Shown here: positions 29,345 through 45,916 of the stretch, in pieces
Position numbering within the stretch: the first letter of the stretch is position 1
Layout of the letters: the number at the start of each line of letters is the position of its first letter
NCBI GenBank assembly: GCA_004356105.1
Contig: SMYC01000105.1
Span: forward strand, 1 to 64,000
From: Acidobacteriota bacterium
GTDB lineage: Bacteria > Acidobacteriota > Vicinamibacteria > Marinacidobacterales > SMYC01
Direction of reading: 5' to 3'
Length of the DNA stretch: 64,000 bases
Position numbers and translations under genes: made by a program
The notes under the pieces: generated by a model
Told to the model about the DNA's origin: nothing
Seen by the model: the letters and a program-made list of their open reading frames with translations, nothing else
The model's database searches: none

Positions 29345-29472
29345 CGTCGCCCTTCGGCCTAGTATCTACCTTTTGCCTCCTGTGTTCAACCGTCTCACTT
29401 GCACCAGTCGCAGGGCCCCGCATGGGTTGACCCCGACGCAAATAAGCATCATCCTTCCTCGTCTGAAGAACT

Positions 29473-29553
29473 TTCGGTGTCCCGATAGATGACACCCATT
29501 CCACCCGCACCGATCTCTTTGGTGACACGGTAGTGCAGGAGCGATTCACCGAT
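29473..29553 (-). pseudogene. Ser/Thr kinase N-terminal shard
   Basis: Minus-strand frame IGESLLHYRVTKEIGAGGMG then VIYRDTE is the start and Gly-rich loop of a Pkn-type kinase. It is cut off before the invariant Lys. The sequence on either side does not continue the kinase. It lies back to back with the tail of another kinase on the plus strand. Confidence 0.75.
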
Positions 29554-29607
29554 CGTTCGAGAAATACCCGATGTTTCAAATTCGAGAAGCCGTCCGTCGG
29601 CGGAGTA

Positions 29608-29727
29608 TATGACGTGATGCCTGACGGCCAGAGCTTCGTCATGATCGATGACAGCGAGGCGGCGCCGCCACCGACTCAGTTGGTCCTCGTTCAGAAACTC
29701 GACTGGCGGGTCAAGAGACCGGGGTAG
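29608..29727 (+). pseudogene. C-terminal shard of kinase/TolB-propeller protein
   Basis: YDVMPDGQSFVMIDDSEAAP and PTQLVLVQKLDWRVKRPG then stop is the standard end of Pkn-type kinases carrying a TolB/WD40-like propeller (usual wording: VxPDGQRFVM...LVxNWxEELKR). Nothing of the preceding propeller is attached in frame. Confidence 0.75.
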
Positions 29728-29738
29728 CCACCTCCCCA

Positions 29739-30671
29739 GTGGCCCTTTCCCCCGACGGCCGGAGCATTGCATTTATTAGCGAGAGAAACGGCACGACGCA
29801 AGTGTTCGTTCACCGTCTCGGTGAGATGACGACCGAGTCGGTTCCCAATACCCACCACGCTCGCAGCGTTTTCTTTTCGCCGGACGGAGGGTCGCTGGGT
29901 TTCTACGTGACCGACGGCTCGCGCTCACATACTGGTTCCCTCAAGAAAATCTCTCTACCGAACGGAGCCCCAGTGACGCTTCACGAGGGCACCGTTGTAG
30001 GCGCGAACTGGGAGCTTGACGGGTCCATTCTGTTCGGAAGCTACGCTGGAGTCTCGAAGATCGCGTCATCAGGTGGCGAAGCGACGCAGGTCGCGATCGT
30101 CGATGGAGCTTTCTACTCTTCACCGCAGCTTCTTCCCGGTGGCAGCGCTCTTCTCTTGACCATCGACCGCGCCGGCCGAACGGATATCGCAGTCTTACCC
30201 GAGGCAGGGCGAGAGGCGAAGGTGCTGGCGGAAGGTGCTCAAGCACGCTACCTGCACACGGGTCATATTCTGTTTTATCGCGAAACGTCTTTGTGGGCTC
30301 TCCCGTTCGACGCCGAGCGTCTCCAAGCGACGGGCGACGCCGTGCCGGTTCTCTCTAACCTTGGTGATGATCGTCCGAGTCCTTTCTTTTCCGCTGATAG
30401 AAACGGAAATCTCGTCTATATACCTGAGTCGGCGACGCCGAGCCGCGATGGGCTATTCGTGTGGGTCGCCCTGCACAGAAATTTCATTTATCGGCTGTGC
30501 GGATACACGATGTGTCTCTGTATTGTTCTCATTGCCGTCTATAAGCTATTCATCGACAGTCACGGCTATCCTGTTGAAACTATCCAACCCGTCTTTTGGT
30601 TAGAATCGCTCGCAATCGTCGTTTTCGCAATCTCCTGGCTCACGAAGGGTGGAATATTTCTGAAAGACTGA
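29739..30671 (+). pseudogene. Chimera: kinase TolB propeller fused to tail of a membrane protein
   Basis: Residues 1-245 are TolB/WD40-type blades from the middle of a kinase-propeller gene (ALSPDGRSIAFISERNG, VFFSPDGGSLGFYVTDG, GANWELDGSILFGSY, ARYLHTGHILFYRETSLWAL). The GTG start is in mid-blade; homology already begins near 29727. At about nt 30477 (GLFVWV then ALHRNFIYRLCG) the sequence changes to a two-helix membrane tail (CLCIVLIAVYKLFI, ESLAIVVFAISWLTKGG) typical of an unrelated small membrane-protein family. The fusion is in frame, so a product is possible, but the gene looks like a deletion product. Confidence 0.65.
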
Positions 30672-30719
30672 GAAGTGCGTGTCTCTTCCGTGAACTCGAA
30701 TGTGCGAGTTCTGACGGAG

Positions 30720-30936
30720 CTGCAAATCGGCGGCCGCTTCCAGGTCGGCGAATCCGCGACCTTGTTCACGATCCGGAGGGTGGGCGACAGCTTCAGCCTA
30801 GCTCTAGCCTCTAGCCGACTACGCGGTGACGCCGGACGGCCAGCGCTTCCTGGTCAACCAAGCACAAGAACCAGCCGTCGATCCTCTCAAGGTTGTCTTA
30901 AACTTAAACTGGACCGCGGAGTTGCGGACCCGGTAA
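30720..30936 (+). pseudogene. C-terminal shard of kinase/TolB-propeller protein, frameshifted
   Basis: LQIGGRFQVGESATLFTIRR is a last-blade sequence; about 20 codons later the sense moves to another frame, VTPDGQRFLVNQAQEPAVDP then LNLNWTAELRTR and stop. This is a different paralogue from the shard at 29608-29727 judging by wording. Confidence 0.65.
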
Positions 30937-31055
30937 TGTGCCATCGTCGGTATCGTCGCCCGAGACGCCAGTCCCACCGATCGAGCAACTCACCTGCGAC
31001 GATCTCCAGTTGCCCACCGCACCCGATCGTCGTACCATCGCCGCTCTGACATAGC

Positions 31056-31873
31056 ATGCTGAAGAAAGTGCGTCTCGACGGAGTGGGAGCGGTGACGATC
31101 ATCGACACCGATCACCGCGAAGGCAGCTGGGACCGTGGCGCCAGCTGGGGGCCCGGCGGCGATATCGTGTTCGCGGGGGGGCGTCTTAGCGAGCTCATGA
31201 AGGTTTCCTCGGATGGTGGGACACCGGAAGTTCTGACGACGCTCGATGCAGACAGGCGTGTAGCAGAGCCACCGCTATCCTCACATCCTGCCGAATGGCG
31301 AGGCCGTGCTCTTCCTCGCATGGACGGGCGGGAGCATGGATGACGCCACTTACATCGAAACAAACTCCGACACTGGGCGTGACATCGGAGTGCTGTCCGT
31401 CGGGGACAATACGTTCCGTGAACTGTTCGCTACTGAGTTCACCGAGGATGGTCCGGCGGTGTCCCCCAATGGGCGTTTCATCGCGTTCTCATCAACAGAA
31501 TCGGATCGCGGCGAGGTTTACGTCACGTCAGCCCGTTTCCGAATGTGGCGGAGAACCGCTGGCAAATCTCGCGTGACGGAGGTCTCTTTCCCGCGTGGTC
31601 ACCCGACGGCAAAGAGCTCTTCTTCTTGAACGAAGGTGCGATGATGGTGGCGCGCATCGACGAGGAACCGAGTTTTACATGGGACACACCACGAGTTCTG
31701 TTCGAAGGGGACTACGTCTTCCAGGATACTTTCGGCCGACCGTACGACGTCGCACCGGACGGCCAGGGCGGTTCTTGATGATGAAGCGGGTCGATTCCGC
31801 TCCGAGACGAAATATCCACATCGTCCTGAATTGGGACGAGGAACTCGAACGCCTAGTTCCCACGAACGACTAG
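31056..31873 (+). pseudogene. TolB-propeller half of a kinase with three frameshifts
   Basis: Reading across frames gives a continuous C-terminal propeller: KKVRLDGVGAVTIIDTDHRE, SHRYPHILPNGEAVLFLAW, AVSPNGRFIAFSSTESDRGE, FPNVAENRWQISRDGGLFPA, YDVAPDG, then FLMMKRVDSAPRRNIHIVL and the standard end ELERLVPTND. Frameshifts fall near 31265, 31530 and 31767. The kinase domain that should precede it is missing. Confidence 0.8.
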
Positions 31874-32025
31874 CATCGTTTCATCCGGCACCCCACTCGG
31901 TGAGGCGCAGCGGACCCAACCGGGCGCGATCCGCGTCGCCATTTTTTCACGAAAACCGTGACAAAAAAGGGAATCCGACGCCTTTCCATTTCGGGGCTCT
32001 GTCTGACACAATGCTCCTGGGAAAC

Positions 32026-32763
32026 ATGGCTAATTCCACTCCGAGTCGGGTCGACCTCACGAACAAGTTTCCCGTCCGAATTCGCTCGATCTTCAACACC
32101 GACAAGGGCACACTGCTGAACCTGTCCTCGACTGGCGCCTACATCGCGACACCCATGTTGCTACTGCCCCAAGCTCAAATCAAACTCCAGATCGTGCTGC
32201 GTGAGGAGAAGCGTTGGGTCGAGGCCGAGGCCGTCGTCGTCTGGGAGAATCGTGGCACCGGGGAACGGCGCGACAGCCTGCCACCGGGCTACGGGTTGCG
32301 CTTCCTGGACTTGCCGGCGGAGACGCGCTCGGTCTTCCAGACACTGCTCACAAACGATGCGCCAGCGCCGGTTCCCGCACTGGCGGCTCCGGAAGCCGAG
32401 GCAGCCTCCGCCCACCACTCGGAGCCCGATGGCCCTCCCTATCGGCTACGCGCCGATGTCGTGGAAGCACACACGCCAGAAAAGCAAGCCGGTATTTTCG
32501 TGCTCTCCTACGACCGCACCCAGGAAGCCCGCGTCGGGAGGGCGGACGAAGATTTGCGGTCTACCATCGCTTCGTTCGAGGGCGAGTACGGCTACTTCTA
32601 TTGCGAGACGATCGAGAATCTCGAAGAGCGTTACGCCCGAGAGTGTGAGCTGTTCCATCGCCTCGGCGGTGATCACTTGCAGCTCGATAACGCGGAGCAC
32701 CCGGCCGCGCCGGAGGGCTCGGACCTCAAGTGTCCCGTCTGCGTGTCCGAAGAAGCGACCTGA
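32026..32763 (+). CDS. PilZ domain joined to GIY-YIG-like domain
   Basis: 245 residues from the ATG at 32026 (an in-frame ATG at 32011 is possible). The N-terminal PilZ-like domain (about 5-108) has NLSSTG, the (N/D)xSxxG cyclic-di-GMP-contact motif, but no clear RxxxR. After an Ala/Pro linker, residues 145-235 read GIFVLSYDRTQEARVGRADE, then FYCETIENLEERYARECELF and HRL. That resembles compact GIY-YIG-like domains (GIYxLS...VGRSD...EC.LYH). The C-terminus holds a CPVC pair. The gene is intact in a region of broken kinases. A nuclease or nucleic-acid-binding protein controlled by cyclic di-GMP is possible but unproven. Confidence 0.6.
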   Translation: MANSTPSRVDLTNKFPVRIRSIFNTDKGTLLNLSSTGAYIATPMLLLPQAQIKLQIVLREEKRWVEAEAVVVWENRGTGERRDSLPPGYGLRFLDLPAETRSVFQTLLTNDAPAPVPALAAPEAEAASAHHSEPDGPPYRLRADVVEAHTPEKQAGIFVLSYDRTQEARVGRADEDLRSTIASFEGEYGYFYCETIENLEERYARECELFHRLGGDHLQLDNAEHPAAPEGSDLKCPVCVSEEAT

Positions 32764-32817
32764 CAAACAGCGCACTGACATGCCGCCTATTTCTGCGAGC
32801 GGCCGAAACGGAAGGCC

Positions 32818-33210
32818 TCACTCCTCTATCATGACCGCCATCCCGCTCGCGACTTGAGTGGCGCCTTCGACATCATCAACGCCGAGAACAACATCGCCGC
32901 GGACAGTGACGTAAACGCAATCGATATTGATCCCCGCCTCCGACATCACGAGCGCCACGTCGCCCAACGTGCCCGGCTGGTCCAGAATGTTCACCACAAC
33001 AACTTCGCGCTTGCTGTAGGGAATACCGGACTCCTCGAGAGCGGCAGCAGCCGCTTCGGTATCGCTCGCTACAAAATGCACGACGGTTACCCCGCGGCCG
33101 CTCCGGGCTTCGATCGCGTCGAAGTTGACGTTGGCATCACCGATCACGGAACCTAGCCAGGCAAGCGAGCCCGGCTTGTCTTCGAGACTGACCTGAAACT
33201 CAATAGGCAT
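32818..33210 (-). CDS. Tandem ACT-domain protein
   Basis: 130 residues made of two ACT-like units: EFQVSLEDKPGSLAWLGSVI (about 4-65) and VVVNILDQPGTLGDVALVMS (about 72-130). ACT pairs bind amino acids and usually control an enzyme or act as stand-alone sensors. No catalytic domain is attached and no amino-acid biosynthesis gene is adjacent. It is convergent with the PilZ fusion gene. Confidence 0.85.
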   Translation of the reverse strand: MPIEFQVSLEDKPGSLAWLGSVIGDANVNFDAIEARSGRGVTVVHFVASDTEAAAAALEESGIPYSKREVVVVNILDQPGTLGDVALVMSEAGINIDCVYVTVRGDVVLGVDDVEGATQVASGMAVMIEE

Positions 33211-33496
33211 GCCCTTGTCCCCCGATCCTCACAGCGTTGTGTCACATTAACATCGAAACGAGGACAAGGGCAGTGCCAATACGTTGCGGAATACAGAGGA
33301 GCATAAGTGCCCAAAACAGTCGGGGTTCCCTTTCCGTAGACTTCGATTGGCGCACGTACTTGAAGCATTTGGCGGGCTGGCGAGACTCGAGCTCGCGACC
33401 TCCGAAAGATAGCACCGGCTCCCGACGCGCCTACACAGTTGAGAGTGTCCCCTGGTTGCCCGCTACCCACCGTTGTCGTAGCATTGATGCCCTGAA

Positions 33497-33565
33497 ATGT
33501 CACTGTCACCCGGCCACAAACTCGCGCACTACGAGATCCTCGAGCCCATTGGCAAAGGCGGGATG
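33497..33565 (+). pseudogene. Ser/Thr kinase N-terminal shard
   Basis: An ATG followed by [20 protein letters not shown] and GMG: the start and Gly-rich loop of a Pkn-type kinase. It breaks at once into sequence from the opposite strand of another kinase (next feature). Confidence 0.8.
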
Positions 33566-33720
33566 GGTGACAGGTCTCGATGGACGATGCCTTTTTCGTG
33601 GGCCGCTTCCAGACCTTCGGCGATCTGCATAAATAAAGTTAGCGCTTCTTCGATGGGAATCGGACCTCTCGCGATGCGCTCCGCGAGCGTCTCCCCTTCC
33701 ACGAGCTCCATGACGAGGTA
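33566..33720 (-). pseudogene. Ser/Thr kinase hinge-to-HRD shard, inverted
   Basis: On the minus strand: [50 protein letters not shown]. This is the hinge to catalytic-loop segment of a Pkn-type kinase. It is cut at both ends, and its 5' edge meets the plus-strand shard at 33720 at the equivalent residue of the kinase fold. Confidence 0.8.
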
Positions 33721-34283
33721 TCACGATGCAGCTCGTTCGGGGAAAGACCTTGACTGAGCTTCTGCCTAGAAACGGCTTTCCGCTGAAGAAATTCTTCGAC
33801 CTCGCGATTCCACTTACAGACGCCGTCGCAGCGGCCCATCAAGAGGGCATCACCCACCGCGATCTCAAGCCGGACAACATGATGGTGGGCGACGACGGAC
33901 GTGTGAGGGTGCTCGACTTCGGGCTAGCGAAACCGATGAGTGGGTTCGTGGGCGGCAACGCCGAGAGTGCCCTTCCCACGGCGGCAACGACGGCGGAGGG
34001 CGTGATTATCGGAACGCTGAACTACATGTCCCCCGAGCAGGCACAGGGCAAGGCGGTGGACGCGCGCTCGGATATTTTCTCGTTGGGCGTGGTTCTCTAC
34101 GAGATGTTGACGGCGCGGCGCCCTTTCGGAGGGGACACGCCGGCCGAGGTGCTGTCCTCCCTAAGTGGTCGCTGGGGAAGGTTAGCCTGGGAAATGACCA
34201 CGGACGGCTCGTATCTCTACTTCGCCTGGCAGGCAGATATCGGCGACATCTGGGTTATGGATATCATAACGGACGAGCAATGA
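33720..34283 (+). pseudogene. Kinase catalytic-domain piece joined to propeller tail
   Basis: Begins at the kinase hinge (TMQLVRGKTLTELLPRNG) and carries the catalytic loop HRDLKPDN, DFG in VLDFGLAKP, and YMSPEQAQGKAVDARSDIFS through EVLSS. Then it jumps directly to WEMTTDGSYLYFAWQADIGD and IWVMDI, which belongs to a WD40-type propeller. The N-lobe with the nucleotide-binding Lys and the kinase C-lobe end are absent, so no active kinase can be made. Confidence 0.8.
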
Positions 34284-34318
34284 TCGGTCGCACTCTTTCC
34301 CAATAAAAGAGTCGAGTC

Positions 34319-34792
34319 ATGCCAGACCAAATCGAAGAGCTCATGGCGCGTGCCTATGCTTTGGCGCGGAGCGCCGTCGCCCACGGTAATCACCCCTTCG
34401 GGGCGCTGCTGGTCAAAGACGGCGAGATACTCGTCGAGGCAGAGAACGAGGTCGTGACGACACGAGACGTCACGCGGCACGCCGAGACGGCACTCGTCGC
34501 CAAGGCGACGATGGAGCTCGACGGGAAGACACTCGCAGCAAGCACCCTCGTCACGAGCACGGAGCCTTGCATCATGTGTTGCGGCGCCATCCATTGGGCC
34601 GGCATCGGCCGCATCGTCTTCGGCGTCCGCGCCCAGCAAATGGTCCGGACCTTTGACGGCGAGTATCGCGGCATCCCGTGCCGCGACGTCTTCGCACGCA
34701 TCAACCCCGAGGTCGAGATCAATGGCCCCGTCCTCGAGAACGAAGGACTCCAGACACACGCCGAGTTTTGGCCTGAGTTCCTCGGACGCTAG
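34319..34792 (+). CDS. Nucleoside/guanine deaminase, CDA superfamily
   Basis: 157 residues, full-length zinc deaminase. The zinc site is RHAETALV (HAE) with TEPCIMCCGAIHW (PCxxC), as in guanine deaminases and TadA-like enzymes. The C-terminus (NEGLQTHAEFWPEF) resembles the guanine deaminase side of the family more than TadA. It deaminates a free base or nucleoside in the cytoplasm. An ATG after a short AT-rich leader is the start. It is intact and lies between kinase fragments. Confidence 0.85.
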   Translation: MPDQIEELMARAYALARSAVAHGNHPFGALLVKDGEILVEAENEVVTTRDVTRHAETALVAKATMELDGKTLAASTLVTSTEPCIMCCGAIHWAGIGRIVFGVRAQQMVRTFDGEYRGIPCRDVFARINPEVEINGPVLENEGLQTHAEFWPEFLGR

Positions 34793-34877
34793 CAAACAGC
34801 CGCTACGTTTACTTCTCCCGGGAGGAGAACGTGGGCGACATCTGGGTCATGACTTCGTCACGTATGAACACGACTAA
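34793..34877 (+). pseudogene. Propeller-tail shard
   Basis: In one frame RYVYFSREENVGDIWVMT, continuing in another as FVTYEHD and stop. This matches the last strand of the WD40-type propeller seen at the end of 33720-34283 (YLYFAWQADIGDIWVMD). Only about 25 residues remain. Confidence 0.6.
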
Positions 34878-34895
34878 TCGGAGAAAAGCCATCGT

Positions 34896-37534
34896 TCACT
34901 TACTGCTGGAAACGAGCTTTTCGAGCTCCGGCAGCCAATTCACGATGACGTGGAGTCGGGGTGGAGGCGCGTCGTCGGCGCGTCTCATCATGACGAAGCG
35001 CTTACCGTCCGGGGAAATGTCGAAGCTCCTTGGTTCGTACCGGTCGTCGAACAAGGCCACGGGGGCGGAGATTTGGAGCGCAGGCTCCGTTTGAAGGATC
35101 CGGACGGCCATCACTTTGCCATCGGTGCTCCGGTAGAAAAGCTCGCGGCCGTCCGGTGCCCAGAGAGGCTCGTCACCGCCGTTCGTCGAGATTTGACTGC
35201 GCCGTTCTCCCTCGGGAAACTCTTGCACGTAGACTTCCGCTCCCGTTCATGAACGCGAGCCAACGGCCATCCGGGGACAGTCTTGCGTTGCCGTCCCTCC
35301 CCAGCGAGACCACGACGAGGCGTGATTTGAGCTCCTCCTCGAAAGACAACGACCAAATTTCGCCGGAGTTGTCCGTAGAGGTCCTATAGTAAACAATCTG
35401 TTTCCCGTCGGCCGACCAAGATTGCGGCACTTGATATCGTTCTGTCGGAAGAGGTTGCTCCGCCTCGAGGGTAGAGCCTACCTGCTTCAAAAAGATATTC
35501 CCTCGACCTCCCGCTCTGTCTGATGCGAACGCAATGCGATTGCCGTCGGGCGACCATATCGGGGAAGCGTTGTTGCCTGTCGATGTCAAACGCTCCAGAG
35601 CCTGGCGCTCCGTATCCAGAATCCAGATGTCGCTTCGTTCTCCTTGAACTCCCACCGCGACACGTCGTCCGTCCGGCGACAAACGGGCTGAGAGAAACGC
35701 GCGCTTGTAGTGACTCAAAGGTTGTTCCTCGCCGTTCCGGTCTACCCATACGAGCACGCGCTCATCGCTCCCGCGGCTCGAGACGTAGACGAGGGAGCCG
35801 GATGCGGAGAAACGGACGGCCGCCTCTCCGATATTCGAGTTGTAGCTCACGTGCTCGAGGAGGGGCACGGCCGGTCCTGTCAGCTCGAGCTTGTCTCGAT
35901 CGAACGGCGCCACCAAAACGACTCCCGCGCGCACCCACGCGAGATGGCCGCTCGACAAATACGTGGGACGGGTACCACCTTCGACCAGAACTTTCTGCTC
36001 GCCCGAGGCCAGAGAGAAGGCTGCGATCGTGGCTTCGTCAAAGCTCCCCTCGGTCTCGATGGCAAAGAGGACCGTCCCGCCGTCGGGAAGAACGTCTGGA
36101 AACCGATGGCTCTGCTCTCCGCGCTCGCTGTCGGGCGTCGTGATACGCTCGGCGGCGGCACCACTCGGCGCGATCCGCCACAGGCCCTCGCGGACGCCCG
36201 CGTTGTAGATGATGCTTCCGTCCGGCCCCCAGGTCATACCCCGCACGCGCCCGACGACCGCATTCTCGAGGGGAAGAGGTGGTCCTCCCTGAAGGGACAT
36301 TCTCTTCAATTGACGCTGCTGAGCGAACACGAGCCAGCGGCCGTCGGGAGAGAAAACGGGATGGTACGCTCCGTTCGTACCCTCTAGCTCTAGGGGCTCG
36401 AGGCTCGCCAGGCGACGCAGCATGAGCCCGGTCCCACCCTCGTAGACCACCGAGCTTCCATCGGGCGACATGGCTATGCTTGAACTTTGGCGTTGCGCCC
36501 CATTCTCCGCGATGTCGATGGCGAAATGGATCGTGGGCGCATCCGCACGCGGTGCTCGAAAAAACCGAGCTCCGCCGAACGCGCCGAGCACGAGCGCTCC
36601 GATGGCTAGAAGCATCGTTCTACGGGAGCTGGCCGGTGCAGAACGTCTGTCCTCTACTACCGCGCCCACGGTCGACGGCTCCGAAAGCAGCTGGCCGAGC
36701 TCCACGCGCAGGTCCCACGCGTCGCGAGCCCTCTGGCGCAGATCCTTTGTGAGACAGCGCTTCAAGAGTCTGAGGAGCGATGACGGCGTCTCGCCCGGCA
36801 GCTTGTTCCAGTCGGGCTCGTGATGAACGATGGCCGCGAGGGTATCGGTGACCGTGTCTCCGTGGAAGGCCTTCGTCGCAGTGAGCGCTTCAAAGAAGAC
36901 GCAGCCGAAGGCCCAAATGTCTGCGCGGCGATCCACCCGACGCCCCCGCGCTTGCTCTGGGCTCATGTACGAAGCCGTTCCGATGATCGCGCCGAGCGCC
37001 GTTCCCTTGGTCAGCGTCGGAGACTGCGAGGAATCCGGCGCGGCGTCGTCGTCCGCTCCGAAAGCTTTGGCGAGACCGAAGTCGAGAATCTTTGGCTTTC
37101 CGTCGGGCCCAATTTTGATGTTCGCGGGCTTCAGATCTCGATGGATGATGCCTTTTTCGTGCGCGACCTCGAGACCCTCGGCAATCTGCAGCAGGAGCGG
37201 GATGGCTTCATTGACGGGAGACCCGCGGCGATGCGCTCCGCCAACGTCTCGCCCTCGATGTACTCCATCACGATGAAATCGACGCCGTTCTGCTCGCCCA
37301 CGTCGTAGAGAGTGCAGATGGACGGATGGTTGAGCTGCGAGATGGCCTTGGCTTCACGTTCGAAACGGGCCTTGCGCTCGGGACTCCCGGCGAGATGCTC
37401 TAGAAGGACTTTGATATGGCCACGGTTCGGTCGAGGCGGGTGTCGTTGGCCTTGTAGACCTCACCCATGCCACCTGCGCCTATCGGCGAGAGGATTTCAT
37501 AGGGGCCGAGGCGGGTTCCGGAGGCGAGCGCCAT
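34896..37534 (-). pseudogene. Ser/Thr kinase with TolB propeller, three frameshifts
   Basis: The most complete kinase gene here, about 880 residues if frames are joined. N-lobe [20 protein letters not shown]; a 2-nt insertion near 37414 interrupts VAIK; a one-base loss near 37220 lies before EAIPLLLQIAEGLEVAHEKG; then HRDLKPANIKIG, ILDFGLAKAFG and YMSPEQARGRRVDRRADIW. A membrane helix (LLAIGALVLGAFGGARFF) joins it to a periplasmic TolB propeller with IWSPDGNRIAFASDRAGG. A further frameshift near 35245 precedes VYVQEFPEGERRSQISTNGG and the end LPELEKLVSSSK. All domains are present, so decay is recent or the shifts are errors. Confidence 0.85.
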
Positions 37535-37762
37535 GGCTAACTGTACTGATAATGTTGAAATTTAGCGAGAAGCGACCGGCGAGCTCCAGGCGGACCTCGT
37601 TGAGAGATGCGCGCGCCACGAGATTTCTGCCATCCCTGCAACTTGGTCCGGAACGAGTTCAATCGCAACGACGTTGGCGACCATTTAGCCTGAGCTTGCC
37701 TTGGAGGCACTCGAGTCTTTCGATCGATGCCTCCGTGTCGTCAACGACACAAACGCGAGGCG
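37535..37762 (-). other. Region without a supported gene
   Basis: The minus strand has a stretch VCVVDDTEASIERLEC that recalls the start of a response-regulator receiver domain, but it stops within 20 codons. I could not support a gene here. Confidence 0.25.
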
Positions 37763-38170
37763 CTACGAAAACGGGTCTACCATTTCCACTCCGGCTTTAT
37801 CGAAGTCGCTCCGATTGCGCGTGGCAAGGGTGAGCTGATGAGCAAGTGCGGTAGAAGCGATTAGACTATCCTTGATCGGCATGGACCGCCCCGCAGCGCG
37901 AAGGTCAGCGAGAAGCTCGGCCCATCGTAAACCGACGCTAGCGTCCCACGAGACGCATTGGATGCGCCGGACTCCCTCATCAAACCAAGTCTCTAGCTGA
38001 TCACGCCGTTTTCCTTGCGCCAGAAGCAGAATGCCGAACCTTATCTCGCCGACAATGATCGGATCGACGGCGATTTCAAGCTCATGACTTCTCAACCACT
38101 GTACGACCGCTGGATTCGGGTCGGGCTTGGTGGGCTCACTCAGTACGTTTGCGTCGACAAGGTAGCTCAC
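37763..38170 (-). CDS. PIN-domain toxin, VapC type
   Basis: 135 residues from the GTG at 38170, which overlaps the antitoxin stop by 4 nt (GTGA). The PIN acidic residues are visible: Asp in SYLVDANVLSEPTKP, Glu in VGEIRFGI, Asp in PIKDSLIASTALAH and Asp in TRNRSDFDKAG. Such toxins cut RNA. It forms a pair with an AbrB-type antitoxin, a common pairing for VapC. Confidence 0.85.
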   Translation of the reverse strand: MSYLVDANVLSEPTKPDPNPAVVQWLRSHELEIAVDPIIVGEIRFGILLLAQGKRRDQLETWFDEGVRRIQCVSWDASVGLRWAELLADLRAAGRSMPIKDSLIASTALAHQLTLATRNRSDFDKAGVEMVDPFS

Positions 38171-38394
38171 AGGGTGTCTGTAGACTCGGATTCGATCGGA
38201 ACGAAAAAGCCCTTGACCGGACAAGCCAGAAGCCAGTCCACAACGCCTTCGTTACACGGCGCTCGCCTCGTTAATCGGTACTCCCCGCGATCGATGCGTT
38301 CGATTTCGAACTCTTGCCCGGCCTCTATATCGTCTTGCTCCCGAATCTCAGCTGGGAGAACGATCTGACCCTTCGTCGAAATCTTAGTCTTCAT
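38167..38394 (-). CDS. AbrB/SpoVT-fold antitoxin
   Basis: 75 residues. The N-terminus KTKISTKGQIVLPAEIRE is the SpoVT-AbrB swapped-hairpin DNA-binding domain; the C-terminal half would bind the VapC toxin. It is the first gene of a minus-strand toxin-antitoxin pair. A perfect palindrome just upstream of its ATG is the likely autoregulatory operator. Confidence 0.85.
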   Translation of the reverse strand: MKTKISTKGQIVLPAEIREQDDIEAGQEFEIERIDRGEYRLTRRAPCNEGVVDWLLACPVKGFFVPIESESTDTL

Positions 38395-38396
38395 CT

Positions 38397-38417
38397 GGGT
38401 AAGATACTATCTTACCC
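38397..38417 (-). promoter_or_regulatory. Perfect palindromic operator for AbrB-VapC module
   Basis: Two 10-bp arms (GGGTAAGATA and its complement) separated by a single C, placed 2 nt upstream of the antitoxin ATG. Position and symmetry fit binding of the antitoxin-toxin complex to its own promoter. Confidence 0.7.
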
Positions 38418-38441
38418 ATCGATTGTCAAGCGTGTGCATAG

Positions 38442-38470
38442 ATAGTATGCTATTAAGCGCTTATAGTATG
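38442..38470 (+). promoter_or_regulatory. Repeat-palindrome operator upstream of ParD-like gene
   Basis: Two direct copies of ATAGTATG (38442-38449 and 38463-38470) flank the palindrome TAAGCGCTTA (38454-38463). It lies 17 nt before the ParD-like start in an AT-rich stretch and is the likely ParD binding site. Confidence 0.6.
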
Positions 38471-38487
38471 ATGCCGCAGAGGGTAGA

Positions 38488-38742
38488 ATGGGAACCGTTC
38501 GAAAAACGATAACGCTCACGGAGAAGCAGGATGAGTGGGTTAAGGCCCAGATAGCGAACGGGGATTACACAAACGACAGCGAGTATTTTCGGGACCTAGT
38601 ACGCCGCCATCAGGAACAAGACGCAAAGTCAAAGACGCTGAAGGACGCGATTCTGGAAGGACTGGAGAGCGGCGTCAGGGAAAAAACCGTCGGCGAGCTA
38701 TGGGCGGAAGCTGAAGCTCGGTACAAGACGCGGGAAGGCTAA
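38488..38742 (+). CDS. ParD-like ribbon-helix-helix antitoxin, apparently without toxin
   Basis: 84 residues. RKTITLTEKQDEWVKAQIAN and GDYTNDSEYFRDLVRRHQEQ match the ParD/CC2985 antitoxin family, with the C-terminal toxin-binding tail ELWAEAEARYKTREG. A ParE toxin normally follows within a few bases, but the next 220 nt show no such protein; the next gene is an Rpn-family relic. It is therefore an orphan antitoxin or has lost its toxin. Confidence 0.85.
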   Translation: MGTVRKTITLTEKQDEWVKAQIANGDYTNDSEYFRDLVRRHQEQDAKSKTLKDAILEGLESGVREKTVGELWAEAEARYKTREG

Positions 38743-38964
38743 GTATCAATTCTTGCTGAGAATCCCGGGCTCGTCAGACGTGCCGAGCCGTTCGCACCAG
38801 ACCTCAGGCGCTTCGAGCACCGGGCGAAGGTCAACGCGAGAACTGCCATAGGTAAGGCTGCATGAGCCGCGCGTATCGCGAACGCACGCACGAGCCAAAA
38901 AAAGACCCTGCCAGGGAGGTCTACGCCTAGTTTTCTCGTCCCTTGTTAACAGAAGGGAGAGAAA

Positions 38965-39905
38965 TTGGGACACGACCAACGCTTCAAGGAGTTCCTGCAC
39001 GCGTTCCTGCAGGATTTCTTGAAGCTGTTCTACCCTGACGTCGAGGAGCGACTCGACTTTCACGGCATTGAGTTCCTCGACACCGAGGTCTTCACAGACC
39101 TTTACGACGGCAGTCGGCGTGAGGCCGATGTCGTGGCAAAGTTGCGCACGCATGACGGAAAGCCGGAGCTCGTTCTGATTCACATCGAGGTCCAGGCTCG
39201 CACGGAGCCGGACGTGAACGAGCGCATGTTCGAGTACTATTCCTTGCTCCGCGCGCGGTACAAGTTGCCGATCTTCCCGATCGTGGTATACCTTCATCGG
39301 GGGAAGGAGGGGCTCGTGATCGAGGAATACCACGAGTCGCTCTTCGAGGTCGAAATTCTCCGGTTCCGCTACGGGAGCGTTCGGTTGGCGCGGCTGAATG
39401 CGGAGGATATCTTGAAAGAGGCGGTCCGGTCGGCGCCGGCTTGGCGGCTCTGATGAACAGGTCGGCTCGATCGCGAAGCCGCAGTCTCGAGTCACTTCGG
39501 GTCTCGATGCTGTGGAAGATAGTAGAGAGTGCACTCGACGAAACCAAACAGCTCCTGCTGATCGACCTCATTCAGACGTACTTCACGCTAACTGACGAGC
39601 AGATGGAAAGATATCAGCGACTGGCCTCGAGAAAGGAGAATCGAAAAGTGCAGGATGTAGATTTGACGTGGTCTGAAAAGCTCGAGCAGAAAGGTCTCGA
39701 AAAAGGTTTCGAGAAGGGGCGCGAGGAGGGACTGGTCACGGGCAAACGCGAGGCTGTCTTGAGGCTTCTGACAGCGAAGTTCGGCGCACTTCCCCAGTCG
39801 ACCAGGAAGCACATAGGGCGTATCGATTCCGCCGACGAGCTCGACGGTTACCTCGATCGCGTTCTCGTGGCTAGCTCTCTAGACGACATGAAACTCGACA
39901 CTTGA
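38965..39905 (+). pseudogene. Rpn-family recombination-promoting nuclease, frameshifted
   Basis: A TTG start with AAGGGAG upstream begins a PD-(D/E)xK nuclease domain: GHDQRFKEFLHAFLQDFLKL, Asp in READVVAKLR, and Glu in LVLIHIEVQARTEPDV (ExQ). Near 39445 the frame shifts from SAPAW to ALMNRSARSRSRSLESL, and the family's C-terminal helical region follows, with SEKLEQKGLEKGFEKGREEG. Rpn proteins were classed as transposase-like (DUF4351/PDDEXK). The catalytic part is whole but the C-terminal half is out of frame. Confidence 0.75.
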
Positions 39906-40115
39906 GCTTCGACGGCGTCTCCGCTTAGGTTAGGTAAGGCCAGTAAAAAGATCGACTGGGTTTCGTCCCTCGAGGAGCGGACCGTGCAACGACTGGCTAT
40001 TTTCAACCACAGCTCACTCGCCCCGAGCACGTTCCCAACGCCGCGAGACCAGCGAAGCCGCAGCTCGACTCCGGGGTTGAACATCCGCTGACACCGGCAT
40101 ATCGTAGCTCCTCAC

Positions 40116-41968
40116 ATGACTCCCGGAACGAAGCTCGCGCATTACGAGATCCTCGAGCCCATCGGGGCTGGAGCCATGGGAGAAGTGCACCTTGCCCGGG
40201 ATACCAGGCTTGGCCGGCTGGCCGCCATCAAGACGCTTCCCACCGAGCTCGCCGCCGACCCGTGTGCGGCGATTCGAGCAGGAAGCGCGCGCGGCATCCT
40301 CGCTCAACCATCCCAACATTGTGCACATCTACGACGTCGGAACTCACGAGGGCGTCCACTTCATCGCCATGGAATATGTCGAGGGCCAGACGCTTCGCGA
40401 GATCCTCGAATCCGGAGCGCTCGTCCCCGAGCGGCTCCTCTCCTATGCGCGCCAGCTCGCCGAGGGACTGGCCAAAGCGCACGGCGCGAAGGTGGTCCAT
40501 CGGGATCTGAAGCCCGAGAACGTGATGGTGACGACGGACGGCTACGTGAAGATCCTGGACTTCGGTCTAGCGAAGCTCTACGCGGACGTCGTCGACGGAC
40601 AGACCGAAGCGCCGACGCTCGAGCGGGCGGGAACTACGCCCGGGACGGTTCTGGGAACGGCGGGCTACATGTCGCCGGAACAGGCGAGAGGGCTCACCGC
40701 CGATTACCGCGCGGACCAGTTTGCATTTGGTGCGATCCTTTACGAGATGGCGCAAGGCGGGGGGCCGCGTCCGGATCACCGCCCAGCTCGTGCACGTTCA
40801 GGATGGCTATCCCCTCTGGTCGGAGCGTTTCGATCGGGAGCTCGACGACGTTTTTGCCATTCAAGAAGAGATTGCTTTGGCTATCGCCGACAAGCTCCGC
40901 GTCGATCTCGCCGCGAGCGCGAGAGACTCTCTCGCCAGACACGGCACGGCCAATCTCGAAGCCCACGACGCTTACCTGCTCGGACTTCATGAGCTCAACC
41001 GCCGCACGACACAAAGCGTCGAGCACGCGATTCAGCATTTCGAGCGCGCCGTCGAGCTCGATCCGGAATTTGCAGAAGCCTATGCGGGGCTCGCAGATGC
41101 GCTGTCTCAGGCTGCGCTCTGGCTCAGCACGCTGCCGGACAGCGCGGGCTCGAGTCGCTCAAAAAGAGCCGCCGAACGAGCCGCCGCATTGGACCCGAAC
41201 CTACACAGCGCGCACACGTCTATCGGATATTGCCGGCTGCTCGAGTGGGACCTTGCGGGTGCGGAGACCGCCTTCGCGCGATCGCTAGAGCTCAGCCCCA
41301 ACTATACGAAAGCGCTTCAGTGGCAGGCACACGTTCTCATAGCCAAAGGTGAGTACGAGCCATCTCGCGAATCGTTCCGCCGCGCTCTCGAATGCGATCC
41401 GCTCTCGATCCTTGTGAGGAACGAAGCAGGTTGGCCTTATCTCTTTATGGGGCGACACGCGGAGGCCGTCGACCATTACAAAGGTGTTCTCGAGGACGAC
41501 CCTTCGTTCGGCCTGGCGCACTACAACCTTGGGAACAGCTACGAAATCGCTCGGCAATACGACGCCGCGATCGAGTGTTACGACCGGGCGATCACTATCA
41601 TGGGTCGCTCTCCCCTAATCCTTCTGTGGCTGGCGCCCGCTCATGCGTTGGACGACCAAATGAGCGAAGCCCTGACGATTAAAGAGGAGCTTCTCGAGCT
41701 TGCGGGTTCGTCCGACGGGATGTTTCTGTTCCTTGCGGTTGTGTGCGATGCCATGCACGAGACAACAGAAGCTCTCGACTGGCTCGAGCGCGCCTTCCAG
41801 GAGCGGAACCCCTGGCTGGTGTTCGTGGTAGCTGGCAATAGCATTCTGCCGTTCGACAACATTCGAGACAAGCCTAGATTTCGCGCGATTATGAAGAAAG
41901 TGACGGCCGCGCAGCCGGCACGCAAGGGCGCGGGATCGTCGGGCGAGACGAGTCGCTCACCGTCCTGA
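40116..41968 (+). pseudogene. Ser/Thr kinase-TPR gene with frameshift and internal deletion
   Basis: Starts [20 protein letters not shown] with AAIKTLP, then shifts frame near 40263 and continues RRFEQEARAASSLNHPNIVH, HRDLKPENVMVT, ILDFGLAKLY and YMSPEQARGLTADYRADQFA up to LYEMAQ. At about 40752-40762, inside a G-rich run, it jumps to GRVRITAQLVHVQDGYPLWS, the region before the TPRs. The kinase end, membrane helix and linker are missing. A TPR array of about eight repeats (HAIQHFERAVELDPEFAEAY, ALQWQAHVLIAKGEYEPSRE) follows in one open frame to 41968. Confidence 0.8.
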
Positions 41969-42375
41969 GCGAAGCTCTCAAAAGCACCTCCGAGCGCGGA
42001 GTCCTGGCGACGGTGTCAGGCGAGCCAGGCATTGGAAAGACGACCCTCGTCGACGCGTTCTTGAAAGATGTGGACGGCGCCGCGATCGGGCGCGGCCGAT
42101 GTTCGGAGCGACTCGCGGGCACGGAAGCTTACCTCCCGATTCTCGAATGCCTGGAAAGCCTGGAAGCTTCGAGCGAAGCTACCGCTGCCCTGCTCGCCCG
42201 TGTGGCGCCAGGTTGGAAGCAACAGCTCGAGGGACATTTCGACGCGTCCCTCGTTCAGGAAAAGCTCAAGCGTGAGCTGAGTGCTTTGCTTCACGAGGCG
42301 TCGCAATCGCAGCGCGTCATCTTGGTCCCGGAAGACGTGCAGACGGTTCTCTCACGAATGAGCTTCCCCAAATAG
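41932..42375 (+). pseudogene. Truncated AAA-type ATPase domain
   Basis: The frame opens with GIVGRDESLTVLSEALKSTS and the Walker A motif GEPGIGKTTLVDAF, the start of an Orc1-like/STAND ATPase of the kind fused to TPR signalling proteins. It ends after RVILVPEDVQTVLSRMSF, just where Walker B and the rest should follow. Its 5' edge is fused to the end of the TPR region in a different frame. No functional ATPase can be made. Confidence 0.65.
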
Positions 42376-42502
42376 CGTAGGGCTTCTGACTCACGTGAGT
42401 CACGGGGCGTCGGAGTTGAACACCTCCGCCCGGTGCCACTGGCATCCAAGCTTCAGACCCCGGTCGCGCCCGACGTTTCATTCATCAACCGAGCCCAGTG
42501 TA

Positions 42503-42723
42503 ATCCGGCTTGGCACGTACGAAATCGTGGAGGCGATTGGACTCTCGAGGGAGAGACCCTGGCCGCGCGCCAAACGTCTAGCCGGCCGAGGTGCTCGGCG
42601 CCGCACAGGGCAGGCATCTTTAGCTCAAACCAAGTAGCACTTGATTCCTATCGCCGCGATCGCTAGATTCCTGCAATGCCACTATGTGCGGGCGGCATGG
42701 GCAAGGTTTACAAGGCTTTGAGA
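42503..42723 (+). pseudogene. Cluster of tiny kinase shards before sulfatase
   Basis: Three short kinase pieces in order but different frames: RLGTYEIVEAIG (42503-42540), LEGETLAAR (about 42541-42570) and CAGGMGKVYKALR (about 42685-42723). These are the N-terminus, hinge and Gly-rich loop of Pkn-type kinases, out of natural order. Region 42376-42502 shows no other feature. Confidence 0.5.
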
Positions 42724-42756
42724 TTTCCTATCCTTTCGAACAAAGGTGACTCATCC

Positions 42757-44409
42757 ATGAAGTTCAAACTGCGTTCGCTGATTCTTGTCTATGTGGCCCT
42801 GCTCCCGATTTCGAGCCGGGCAGACGAGCGACCCAACATCGTGCTGATCGTGGGAGACGACGTCGGCTTTTCGGATATCGGCGCATTCGGCGGCGAGATC
42901 CGGACACCCAACCTCGACGCGCTGGCAAAGGAGGGCGTGCGACTGACCAATTACCACGCGGCGCCGACCTGCGGTCCATCGCGATCTATGTTGCTGACCG
43001 GCGTCGATCATCACCTGGCCGGATCCGGGGTCAATCGCGCCGGTCTTTTTCGACTGCCGGAACTGCAGGGACGGCCCGGATATGAGGGTTACCTCAATGA
43101 CAGCGTCGTGACATTTGCGACCTTGTTGAAAGATGCCGGCTATCACACCTATATAAGCGGTAAATGGGATCCCGGCACTCGTCCCGGGCAGTTGCCAATC
43201 GATCACGGTTTCGAGCAATCGTTTGTGATGGCTGCCGGTGGTGCCAGCCATTTCGACGATATGGCTGGGTTAACCCGTCCGGTCGCGGTGGCGCCCTATT
43301 ATGAGAACGATAGGAAAGTCGAAAAGCTGCCGGAAGATTTTTATTCATCCGAGTTCTACACAGATCGGATCATCGACTACATCGATAGTAACGACGATGG
43401 TCGGCCGTTCATGGCGTATCTGTCCTTTACCGCGGGTCACTGGCCGTTGCAGGTTCCGGATGACTGGCTCGACCGCTACGAAGACAAATACGAGGAAGGC
43501 TGGCGCGCGATAAGAGAAGAGCGCTTCAAGCGTCAAAAGGATATGGGCATCATTCCTGCTCACGCGCAATTGTCAGAAGGACACCCGGCGGTAAAGGACT
43601 GGGACACTCTATTGCCGGCCGAGCGGCAGGTCGAGTTGAAGCGCATGCGGATCTATGCCGCCATGATCGAGAACATGGACCATCATATCGGTCGGCTATT
43701 GGAGGCGTTGAAAGAACGGGATACGGAACGCGAAACGTTCATTATTTTCCTGTCTGACAACGGCGCCGAAGGCAATGCTATCGACGGGATAATGGACAAC
43801 AAGTACTGGATCCCGTCCAACTTCGACAACCGGTTCGAAAACCTGGGACGGCAGGGCTCTTATGTGTGGCTAGGCCTCGGCTGGGGCGACGCGGCTGTCA
43901 CTCCGTTCAGACTATTCAAGTCATACACGACAGCGGGCGGAATTCGGACGCCGGCCATTCTCTACAGCACGCACGGTCGAACCGACAACGGTATCAAGGA
44001 TGCGATCGTTACGGTCAGAGATATTGCACCAACCATTCTCGAGCTGGCGGGCGTCGAAAAGCCGGAGGGCTCCTACGACGGCAAGACCGTCCATCGCATG
44101 TCAGGGAAGTCACTTCTCGATTACCTGGGGGGGCAATCGGAAACCGTGCACGATAATGAGCCGCTCGGTTGGGAAGTCTATGGTAGCCGCGCTCTGATCA
44201 AGGGAGAATGGAAGGCGGTCAGAATATACCCACCTGCCGGAAATGGGCAATGGGAACTGTTCAACATCAGGACAGACCCGACGGAAACGGCAAATCTCGC
44301 GGGCGACTTTCCGGACGTAATCGCCGAGCTCATCGCTGACTGGGACGCGTACGCAGAAGCGAACGGCGTTGCGGTTTTCGAAAGAGACGTGGGTTACGGC
44401 CGCTACTAG
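42757..44409 (+). CDS. Exported arylsulfatase, formylglycine type
   Basis: 550 residues from the ATG at 42757, chosen for AAAGGTGA upstream and a signal peptide (LILVYVALLPISSRA). The type I sulfatase motif CGPSR, whose Cys becomes formylglycine, is in PTCGPSRSMLLTGVD. Metal ligands are visible in IVLIVGDDVGF and FLSDNGAEGN; Lys in ISGKWDPGT. The sequence is less GC-rich than its neighbours by eye (about 55 percent in a sampled stretch). It hydrolyses a sulfate ester outside the cytoplasm; the substrate is unknown. A frame open upstream contains kinase shards and is not part of the gene. Confidence 0.9.
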   Translation: MKFKLRSLILVYVALLPISSRADERPNIVLIVGDDVGFSDIGAFGGEIRTPNLDALAKEGVRLTNYHAAPTCGPSRSMLLTGVDHHLAGSGVNRAGLFRLPELQGRPGYEGYLNDSVVTFATLLKDAGYHTYISGKWDPGTRPGQLPIDHGFEQSFVMAAGGASHFDDMAGLTRPVAVAPYYENDRKVEKLPEDFYSSEFYTDRIIDYIDSNDDGRPFMAYLSFTAGHWPLQVPDDWLDRYEDKYEEGWRAIREERFKRQKDMGIIPAHAQLSEGHPAVKDWDTLLPAERQVELKRMRIYAAMIENMDHHIGRLLEALKERDTERETFIIFLSDNGAEGNAIDGIMDNKYWIPSNFDNRFENLGRQGSYVWLGLGWGDAAVTPFRLFKSYTTAGGIRTPAILYSTHGRTDNGIKDAIVTVRDIAPTILELAGVEKPEGSYDGKTVHRMSGKSLLDYLGGQSETVHDNEPLGWEVYGSRALIKGEWKAVRIYPPAGNGQWELFNIRTDPTETANLAGDFPDVIAELIADWDAYAEANGVAVFERDVGYGRY

Positions 44410-44411
44410 AA

Positions 44412-44867
44412 CTATTTGGGATTCTCGATGGCGGCCAAATGGTCGAGAGGATGCTGCCATGTGAGCCCGGGGAAGCGCGCAAAATCGCGATCTGTTGTGA
44501 TCCACGTGCAACCCGATTCGATCGCAAGAGCAGCAAACCAGGCGTCTGTGACGAGGTTGGCTTTCGCATTCGTGGTTTTGCAGAGCCGAACGAAGGACGA
44601 CCAATGCCGAGTTGATGAGCGTATGACGCGGCAGTTAGGGTGCTCCTGTATCGATTCGGTGAACGCAATCGCCTCCCCGAGCACCGTAGGCTCTTTGAAG
44701 ATTCTCGGATGCGTGGTGATGCGAATGACGCTTGTGAGCACCTGTTCGGAAATAGCGAAAGCTGTGCTCCCGTTCATCAAGTCTAGTAGCCACGCTCGGA
44801 ACATGTCGTGTCGCTCCGAATCTCGTCTGAAAGAATAGATGAGGACGTTGACGTCTAGCAGGTTCAC
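44412..44867 (-). CDS. vapC: PIN-domain toxin, VapC type
   Basis: 151 residues. MNLLDVNVLIYSFRRDS holds the first PIN Asp; further acidic residues lie in EQVLTSVIR (Glu), LVTDAWFAALAIESG and ITTDRDFARFP (Asp). It resembles the mycobacterial-type VapC group acting on RNA. It overlaps its antitoxin by 4 nt and ends 3 nt from the sulfatase stop (convergent). Confidence 0.85.
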   Translation of the reverse strand: MNLLDVNVLIYSFRRDSERHDMFRAWLLDLMNGSTAFAISEQVLTSVIRITTHPRIFKEPTVLGEAIAFTESIQEHPNCRVIRSSTRHWSSFVRLCKTTNAKANLVTDAWFAALAIESGCTWITTDRDFARFPGLTWQHPLDHLAAIENPK

Positions 44868-45106
44868 TCGCGTCCTTCCATGACGTCTTCGAGCCCGGCG
44901 TTCGAATCTAGATCTACGCCAGGGCGCAAGCCTCCTTTTCCCGAAACAGGGAGCGTGAAGCGCCGGGAGCGAGTCTTTTCTGGCGTGTCTCGATATGTGG
45001 CGAGTATCGCCTCGGTGATGGCCTCACCGAGCGAGATCCCTTTCTGCTGAGCTTTGTCCTTACATAGTTCCAGCGCTTCGTCTTGAATGTTGACGGTAGT
45101 TCTCAT
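44864..45106 (-). CDS. vapB: VapB-type ribbon-helix-helix antitoxin
   Basis: 80 residues. RTTVNIQDEALELCKDKAQQ is a ribbon-helix-helix DNA-binding start; the C-terminal tail (PGVDLDSNAGLEDVMEGRE) would wrap the toxin. It precedes the vapC gene with a 4-nt overlap. An inverted repeat upstream is the likely operator. Confidence 0.85.
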   Translation of the reverse strand: MRTTVNIQDEALELCKDKAQQKGISLGEAITEAILATYRDTPEKTRSRRFTLPVSGKGGLRPGVDLDSNAGLEDVMEGRE

Positions 45107-45127
45107 ACTCGAGATTCTACCTAGTCT

Positions 45128-45154
45128 AGCATCAAGATGTCAATATATGATGCT
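45128..45154 (-). promoter_or_regulatory. Inverted-repeat operator of vapBC
   Basis: AGCATCA (45128-45134) and TGATGCT (45148-45154) form an inverted repeat with a 13-nt AT-rich spacer, 22 nt upstream of the vapB start. It fits autoregulation by the VapB-VapC complex. Confidence 0.55.
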
Positions 45155-45168
45155 GTGATGATGGCTAC

Positions 45169-45198
45169 CATCTGTGGTCCGAGCGCTTCGACCGCGAG
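45169..45198 (+). pseudogene. Ten-codon shard of a kinase-TPR gene
   Basis: Plus-strand codons HLWSERFDRE match the highly conserved pre-TPR segment at 40809-40840 (PLWSERFDRE). It is only 30 nt and lies between vapBC and the next gene. The rest of 45155-45325 shows no gene. Confidence 0.45.
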
Positions 45199-45325
45199 CG
45201 CTGAGATCCGCTCCGCGACCAGCCCTGCCTCCAAGCCGTTCTCTCACGGATGAGTATGCAGAGGTCACATTTGTCTTGTTCCTTCTTTTGATGCATATTA
45301 GAGTATAAAATGAGGATTTCTGAAC

Positions 45326-45667
45326 ATGACGAGGATTCAACCTGTACTAAATGAAGCTGAGGCGTCGCTGGTAAACCAGATGGCAGCCTTGACGGGCACG
45401 AAGCGCACGGATGTCATCAAGAATGCTCTCACGGTTTACCACTGGTTCATCAAACAAGCCATCATCGGTGCAAGCGTCGTCGCCCGCAAGCCCTCGGGTG
45501 AGGAGGTGGTCCTCGAGACAGCCGAGCTATCAGCGCTGGAGGGGCAAGCGCAGTTGCTGAGCCCAGCAGAACTGCAAGCTCTAGCCAAGAAGCTGGCGGC
45601 GGCCTCCGACCCAAAGGAAGCTGCCCGACTCAAGGAACGGTTGGCCCGTGGATTCTACGGGATCTGA
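45326..45667 (+). CDS. Small helical protein, possible RHH antitoxin-like member of two-gene module
   Basis: 113 residues, start ATG after an AT-rich leader. RIQPVLNEAEASLVNQMAAL and TGTKRTDVIKNALTVYHWFI look like a ribbon-helix-helix start with a helical arm (T-x-R-x-D-V-I-x-x-A-L). The C-terminus SALEGQAQLLSPAELQALAK and AARLKERLARGFYGI is helical and charged. It lies 3 nt before a second small gene. I do not recognise the family; the RHH reading is by pattern. Confidence 0.6.
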   Translation: MTRIQPVLNEAEASLVNQMAALTGTKRTDVIKNALTVYHWFIKQAIIGASVVARKPSGEEVVLETAELSALEGQAQLLSPAELQALAKKLAAASDPKEAARLKERLARGFYGI

Positions 45668-45670
45668 ACG

Positions 45671-45916
45671 GTGCCTCGCATTCGCCGGAAAAACCTCCCG
45701 CCGGCGCTGTTCCATCACTTGCTCGAGCGGATCCAGGAGCGTCAGATCGACGCTAGTCAGCTCGAGTTGCTGGCCGAGTGGCTGGATGGTGACCCGGAGG
45801 TTCCGGAAGGTCTCTGGTACAAGCAATTCCCTGGCATGACGGTTTGCGGAGAAGGTGATCTGATTCGGACGTTGCTCCTACCAGGGCAAGCTGCCAAGGG
45901 AAAACTGGTTTCCTGA
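45671..45916 (+). CDS. Small unrecognised protein, partner of upstream gene
   Basis: 81 residues from a GTG 3 nt after the previous stop. PRIRRKNLPPALFHHLLERI, QERQIDASQLELLAEWLDGD and FPGMTVCGEGDLIRTLLLPG look like a compact helical domain plus a beta part. I recall this sequence type as a widespread uncharacterised small protein, without a name. Size and order (DNA-binding-like gene first, tight spacing) resemble a toxin-antitoxin module. Confidence 0.6.
   Translation: MPRIRRKNLPPALFHHLLERIQERQIDASQLELLAEWLDGDPEVPEGLWYKQFPGMTVCGEGDLIRTLLLPGQAAKGKLVS

Follow-up and report, generated by a model that had tools for sequence, protein, structure and literature searches.

Clustered remnants of Hanks-type Ser/Thr kinase genes in an acidobacterial genome, probably dead members of a large recombining family

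How did pieces of Ser/Thr kinase genes come to lie, on both strands and between intact genes, in one part of an acidobacterial contig? The stretch of DNA considered here, referred to as the window, covers 64,000 nucleotides of contig C260, in an assembly of 6.77 Mb and 335 contigs (G000). It was compared with three genomes from the same family and about 190 from the class (192 class relatives in the motif counts); a class member represented by a single 7,480,314-bp contig (G032) served as control. The region probably collects defunct genes from a very large Hanks-type kinase family that recombines and evolves by birth and death.

Kinase-derived sequence was mapped by tblastn with 40 long kinase frames of the same genome, by an HMM of the kinase domain built from these frames, and by Pfam; the remnants match PF00069 as well as the HMM and contain conserved kinase motifs. 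The original prediction had listed at least ten kinase pieces on both strands. Their kinase origin, strands and positions were recovered by these searches, while their number was not, since several of them prove to be consecutive frames of a single gene and the whole set collapses to seven remnants with propeller, TPR or AAA tails, spread over some 13 kb (29.4-42.4 kb):

29,455-29,601, minus strand: K1, start of a kinase gene (N-terminus to glycine loop, HMM 9-38), then unrelated sequence (HMM, tblastn)
29,673-30,668, plus strand: K2, propeller segment (residues ~320-604) from a kinase-propeller gene (tblastn, PD40)
31,053-31,867, plus strand: K3, propeller tail, residues ~413-474 and then ~720-888 (tblastn, PD40)
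33,494-33,571, plus strand: K4a, kinase start codon to glycine loop, 26 aa (tblastn)
33,571-33,720, minus strand: K4b, inverted 147-bp hinge-to-HRD segment, HMM 88-144 (HMM, tblastn)
33,720-34,163, plus strand: K4c, hinge to helix F, HMM 94-228 (HMM, tblastn)
34,164-34,283, plus strand: K4d, final ~40 residues of a propeller tail, with stop (DNA match)
34,902-37,552, minus strand: K5, near-complete kinase-propeller gene with three frameshifts (HMM, tblastn)
40,077-41,914, plus strand: K6, broken kinase-TPR gene (Pfam, HMM, tblastn)
41,887-42,351, plus strand: K7, truncated AAA_16 segment (Pfam)

Each of the seven has lost its intact frame or essential domains through frameshifts, deletions or truncations, as seen in the tblastn mapping. 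The propeller segment K2 is 34% identical to its best paralogue, and K3 carries an internal deletion together with frameshifts at about 31,264, 31,524 and 31,766. In K5 the frameshifts lie near 37,415, 37,218 and 35,240; its N-lobe is about 85% identical to kinases on C94, C165 and C98, its C-lobe 67% identical to one on C263. K6 is interrupted by a frameshift at about 40,259 and by a frameshift plus deletion at about 40,758, where residues 230-420 are lost, and the AAA_16 domain of K7 is of the type found after the kinase domain in another kinase subfamily (cf. L191).

The most composite remnant is K4 (33,494-34,283, 790 bp), a mosaic of start, inverted hinge-to-HRD, hinge-to-helix-F and tail-end pieces. 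The minus-strand hinge-to-HRD piece, already proposed from the sequence alone, does sit inverted between two plus-strand pieces. Each part of K4 finds its best match in a different kinase, in agreement with the earlier suggestion that several paralogues were the sources: K4a plus the region upstream is 89% identical to C110, the best DNA match of K4b is 82% (C167), that of K4c 73-74% (C302), and K4d shares 89% DNA identity with C64:19598-19659. No microhomology was evident at the K4 junctions, as judged by eye.

Between and beside these remnants lie the other genes that had been reported for this stretch, all of which are present, together with an additional, Rpn-like gene:

31,831-32,763: PilZ gene
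32,818-33,210: ACT gene
34,319-34,792: deaminase gene
37,766-38,739: PIN gene adjoining a gene of ribbon-helix-helix type
38,905-39,899, plus strand: Rpn-like nuclease gene (PDDEXK_2 / Transposase_31, DUF4351), frameshifted
42,676-44,409: sulfatase gene
44,415-45,139: PIN gene adjoining a gene of ribbon-helix-helix type

The non-kinase genes of the window have long intact frames, and the two PIN/RHH pairs are likely toxin-antitoxin pairs; a small gene pair is also found at 45,314-45,913. The frameshift of the Rpn-like gene lies near 39,410-39,510, and an intact homologue is encoded at C274:15246-16271. The C-terminal part of the frameshifted gene is open in another frame; in known systems, the C-terminal region of Rpn genes encodes RpnS. 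On the right flank, a sortilin gene, whose best named neighbours are in acidobacterial MAGs, is conserved in the family and the order, and the left flank is not. An empty site was sought through flank synteny in relatives and none was demonstrable, because no relative locus spans the region. As regards a possible integron cassette array, a scan of the window gave no Rfam family at the gathering threshold, Rfam not being specific for attC, and the Pfam scan of the window frames, likewise not specific for attC, revealed no integrase.

The decay seen in the window extends to the kinases of the whole genome. In 1.45 Mb of G000, most of it taken from the surroundings of kinase hits, a census counted 73 intact kinase units, 16 full-length units with frameshifts, 61 partial units and 11 cut by contig ends. 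Outside contig ends, some 77 broken units thus stand against 73 intact ones, i.e., about half of roughly 150 loci. As an in-genome control, about 55 of the 59 ABC_tran domains of G000 are complete in one open frame, and most of the 88 kinase matches of G032 are complete, with far fewer broken than in G000; the broken fraction is therefore high for the kinases of G000. The window holds a dense cluster of such broken kinases and C263 another. Apparent relics of other kinds were mostly propellers or frames without family assignment in this sample, which is biased to kinase loci; as loci picked by kinase hits sample the debris of other families unevenly, no claim is made that decay is absent from those families. 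A further type of remnant is exemplified by a 125-bp fragment on C264, which is 97% identical to K5 and has unrelated sequence on both sides. A literature search found no papers on kinase pseudogenes in this class.

The intact kinases bear marks of exchange as well. For each of them, the closest relative of the N-lobe was compared with that of the C-lobe, random splits of the alignment columns into sets of the same sizes serving as null. In G000, the two lobes had the same closest relative in 10-11 of 57 intact kinases, against 20.7 +/- 2.7 expected, and none of 200 random column splits reached a value as low as 10; the residual scatter between lobe identities was 0.069 versus 0.052 in random splits. 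The control genome G032, with 49 kinases and a similar range of nearest-neighbour identities, showed no such effect (19 versus 20.6 +/- 2.2). Many of the points at which a switch is inferred fall close to the hinge (alignment columns 110-115), and the clearest mosaic, on C94, matches the C98 kinase at 82% identity over the N-lobe and at 45% over the C-lobe. These data support the view, put forward in the original prediction, that kinase paralogues have repeatedly recombined, the intact G000 kinases appearing as mosaics across the hinge. Identities of 60-85% mark the mosaic-forming events as old. The signal could partly reflect different rates of evolution in the two lobes, although it is absent from the control genome.

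It had also been suggested that the pieces are cut at domain-like points. Breaks were simulated by cutting the 57 intact kinases at random, joining them to random sequence of the same genome and running the same HMM; the observed positions (44 3' ends and 33 5' starts) are spread much as in these random cuts, and a preference for domain borders is thus weakly supported. Mild excesses are confined to the surroundings of the glycine loop and to the SPEQ region (HMM 195-239). A large excess of 5' starts at HMM 27-35 arises because most of these starts are one-base deletions splitting the domain rather than cuts.

Taken at face value, these patterns are consistent with the following course of events. 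New kinase copies would come from duplication and from paralogues exchanging segments, frequently close to the interlobe hinge. Most copies would be dispensable, and would die by frameshift (K5, K6), deletion (K3, K6) or truncation (K1, K2, K7). Illegitimate joining would in addition insert short kinase fragments in either orientation, as in K4 and in the 125-bp copy of K5 on C264. The joining may proceed by end joining, or alternatively by short-patch illegitimate integration. End joining is possible since Ku is encoded at C245:10367-10909, and the K4 junctions without evident microhomology, together with Ku, would fit it. The remnant pieces are presumably without function.

One feature of the family calls for separate treatment. 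About nine G000 kinases outside the window have each lost a single G from one particular glycine-loop codon (GGN-ATG-GG[N]-GAG), at C135:5923, C110:10960, C229:1003, C320:11135, C80:23901, C301:8542, C53:12804, C150:20434 and L242:3792; three further kinases miss one base elsewhere in the glycine loop. Three of the one-G-deleted genes are otherwise open over ~760-860 codons; others are broken elsewhere too. For the exact motif, 8 copies are deleted and 52 normal in G000 (8/60), as compared to 10 deleted and 1,217 normal (10/1,227) in the 192 class relatives together, with at most one per genome; the associated Fisher p of about 4e-7 is descriptive only, because the observed pattern itself prompted the search. 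Relatives with 40-56 normal glycine-loop motifs have zero deletions. Within G000, eight other kinase motifs show about nine single-base losses versus 387 intact copies, and the glycine-loop motif nine losses versus 45 intact (p about 6e-5).

Several possible causes of these deletions and of the kinase relics were considered and set aside. Spreading of one deletion by gene conversion does not agree with the bases within 3 nt on both sides, which differ between genes; as the neighbouring third positions differ, the deletions do not descend from a single event and look independent. Programmed ribosomal frameshifting is not favoured either, a common slippery heptamer not being seen in the listed sites. 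Rearrangement junctions also fall at the same glycine-loop site in K4 and on C48, C167, C257 and C269. At L171 (C257:10357-10468) and L174 (C269:1-142), two different kinases adjoin one and the same 112-bp stretch of non-kinase DNA, in both cases at the same position of the glycine loop. The idea of a mobile element with its end at the glycine loop was rejected, this flank occurring only twice in the genome, both times at contig ends, and the other junctions there having different flanks. In L180 (C301:8542 onwards), the start of a one-G-deleted kinase runs straight into a winged-helix-like regulator domain, possibly a fusion relic of a kinase start and a winged-helix regulator domain. Finally, the palindrome AATCTCGTT-CTG-AACGAGATT characterises an intergenic repeat, some 120 bp long, that was noticed at L170:1640-1830 (C106) and also on C91, C179, C264, C263, C234, C147, C110 and C229; it sometimes adjoins broken kinases, with relics close by on C106, C263, C264, C91 and C179. 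It was not retained as a cause, as it is also found far from kinases and not in the window. The glycine-loop deletions may reflect a hotspot of mutation, a targeted process or a fault in the assembly.

Could the whole pattern then be an artefact, paralogous kinases having been misjoined into chimeras with false frameshifts? Kinases evidently trouble this assembly, as many contigs end inside kinase genes; contig ends and breakpoints both tend toward conserved motifs, and both mosaicism and glycine-loop deletions are strong here and not in the tested relatives. Such an explanation is nonetheless unlikely. At the hinge, the sequence that a strongly mosaic kinase has in common with any other is mostly 16-28 bp long, which, by an indirect argument, is too short to join contigs at usual k, and about 4% of intact kinases have a common 31-mer in the hinge bin. 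Moreover, the other genes of the window keep their long frames, other genomes contain 40-56 normal kinase motifs without deletions, and the joins to unrelated sequence and the inverted inserts of the kinase remnants cannot stem from shared k-mers. Less probable still is targeted breakage, in which a lineage-specific agent, for instance a nuclease or a mobile element, would recognise kinase DNA and break the glycine-loop sequence, end joining then leaving one-base deletions and captured fragments. The repeated loss of a single G from one codon amid neighbour bases that vary, the frequency of such deletions here relative to the 192 relatives, their rarity in the eight other motifs, the five junctions at the same site (those on C257 and C269 with the shared 112-bp flank) and the presence of Ku all speak for it. 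However, no candidate nuclease or element emerged, rearrangement ends are only mildly clustered at the glycine loop, 52 motifs are unbroken, and a mutation hotspot or an artefact may lie behind the deletions instead. It is similarly improbable that, in this lineage, a specific DNA-breaking agent recurrently breaks kinases at this one codon and re-pairs them at the hinge, leaving the window pieces as by-products; if it did, the kinase repertoire would undergo constant inactivation while its lobes were shuffled into ever new combinations.

A silent cassette store, the second explanation offered originally, would mean that the pieces donate sequence to an expressed kinase through gene conversion, just as pilS does to pilE. 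Partial copies are indeed many, the intact kinases show hinge mosaicism, and the inverted segment of K4 starts and stops near the conserved hinge and HRD motifs. The idea is nevertheless highly improbable, as no long near-identical tract is shared with any intact kinase: in the fetched set, the longest exact matches of window pieces to kinase genes are 41, 40 and 35 bp, longer stretches are only 73-89% identical to intact kinases, and the sole 97% tract (the 125 bp of K5 and C264) pairs two relics and not an expressed gene. In addition, the pieces are frameshifted with ends that are not uniform, their best matches are different kinases with no dominant recipient, and K5 and K6 are simply whole dead genes. 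Decay of a recombining family is thus the preferred reading: the processes are ordinary duplication, recombination and decay, at unusual intensity in one family, plus one unexplained hotspot.

Bacterial kinase families are usually described by counts of intact genes. With about half of its units dead and its intact ones apparent mosaics, this genome could show the turnover of large bacterial signalling repertoires, and the nine or so paralogues that lost a single base from the same codon provide a sharp test between hotspot, targeted process and assembly fault.

Among known systems, pilE/pilS and vlsE rely on gene conversion from silent cassettes. The region resembles them in containing partial silent copies of an expressed family and differs in having no near-identical tracts, no single expression site and no uniform cassette ends. 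Short fragments out of place and in both orientations would likewise be expected if short DNA integrated illegitimately in the course of transformation or repair, a class of events mentioned in PMC8116780. In E. coli, recombination independent of RecA is promoted by Rpn proteins, RpnA being reportedly sequence-unspecific (PMC5350276); an Rpn-like gene does lie in the region but is frameshifted, and a link to recombination would be a lead only. Fragmentation tracks of pseudogenes and gene remnants have been described in Rickettsia (PMC2374718), and the present remnants are similar in their frameshifts, deletions, truncations and interleaved intact genes; in contrast to Rickettsia, they belong to one expanded family in a large genome, include inverted and ectopic short fragments, and do not reflect general genome reduction. 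Candidatus Solibacter usitatus, of the same phylum, also has many divergent Ser/Thr kinase paralogues, for which positive selection is reported to have left no trace (PMC3174227). The word "pseudogene" is absent from the main text of that report, whereas broken units make up about half of the kinase complement here, and the intact kinases look like mosaics of lobes.
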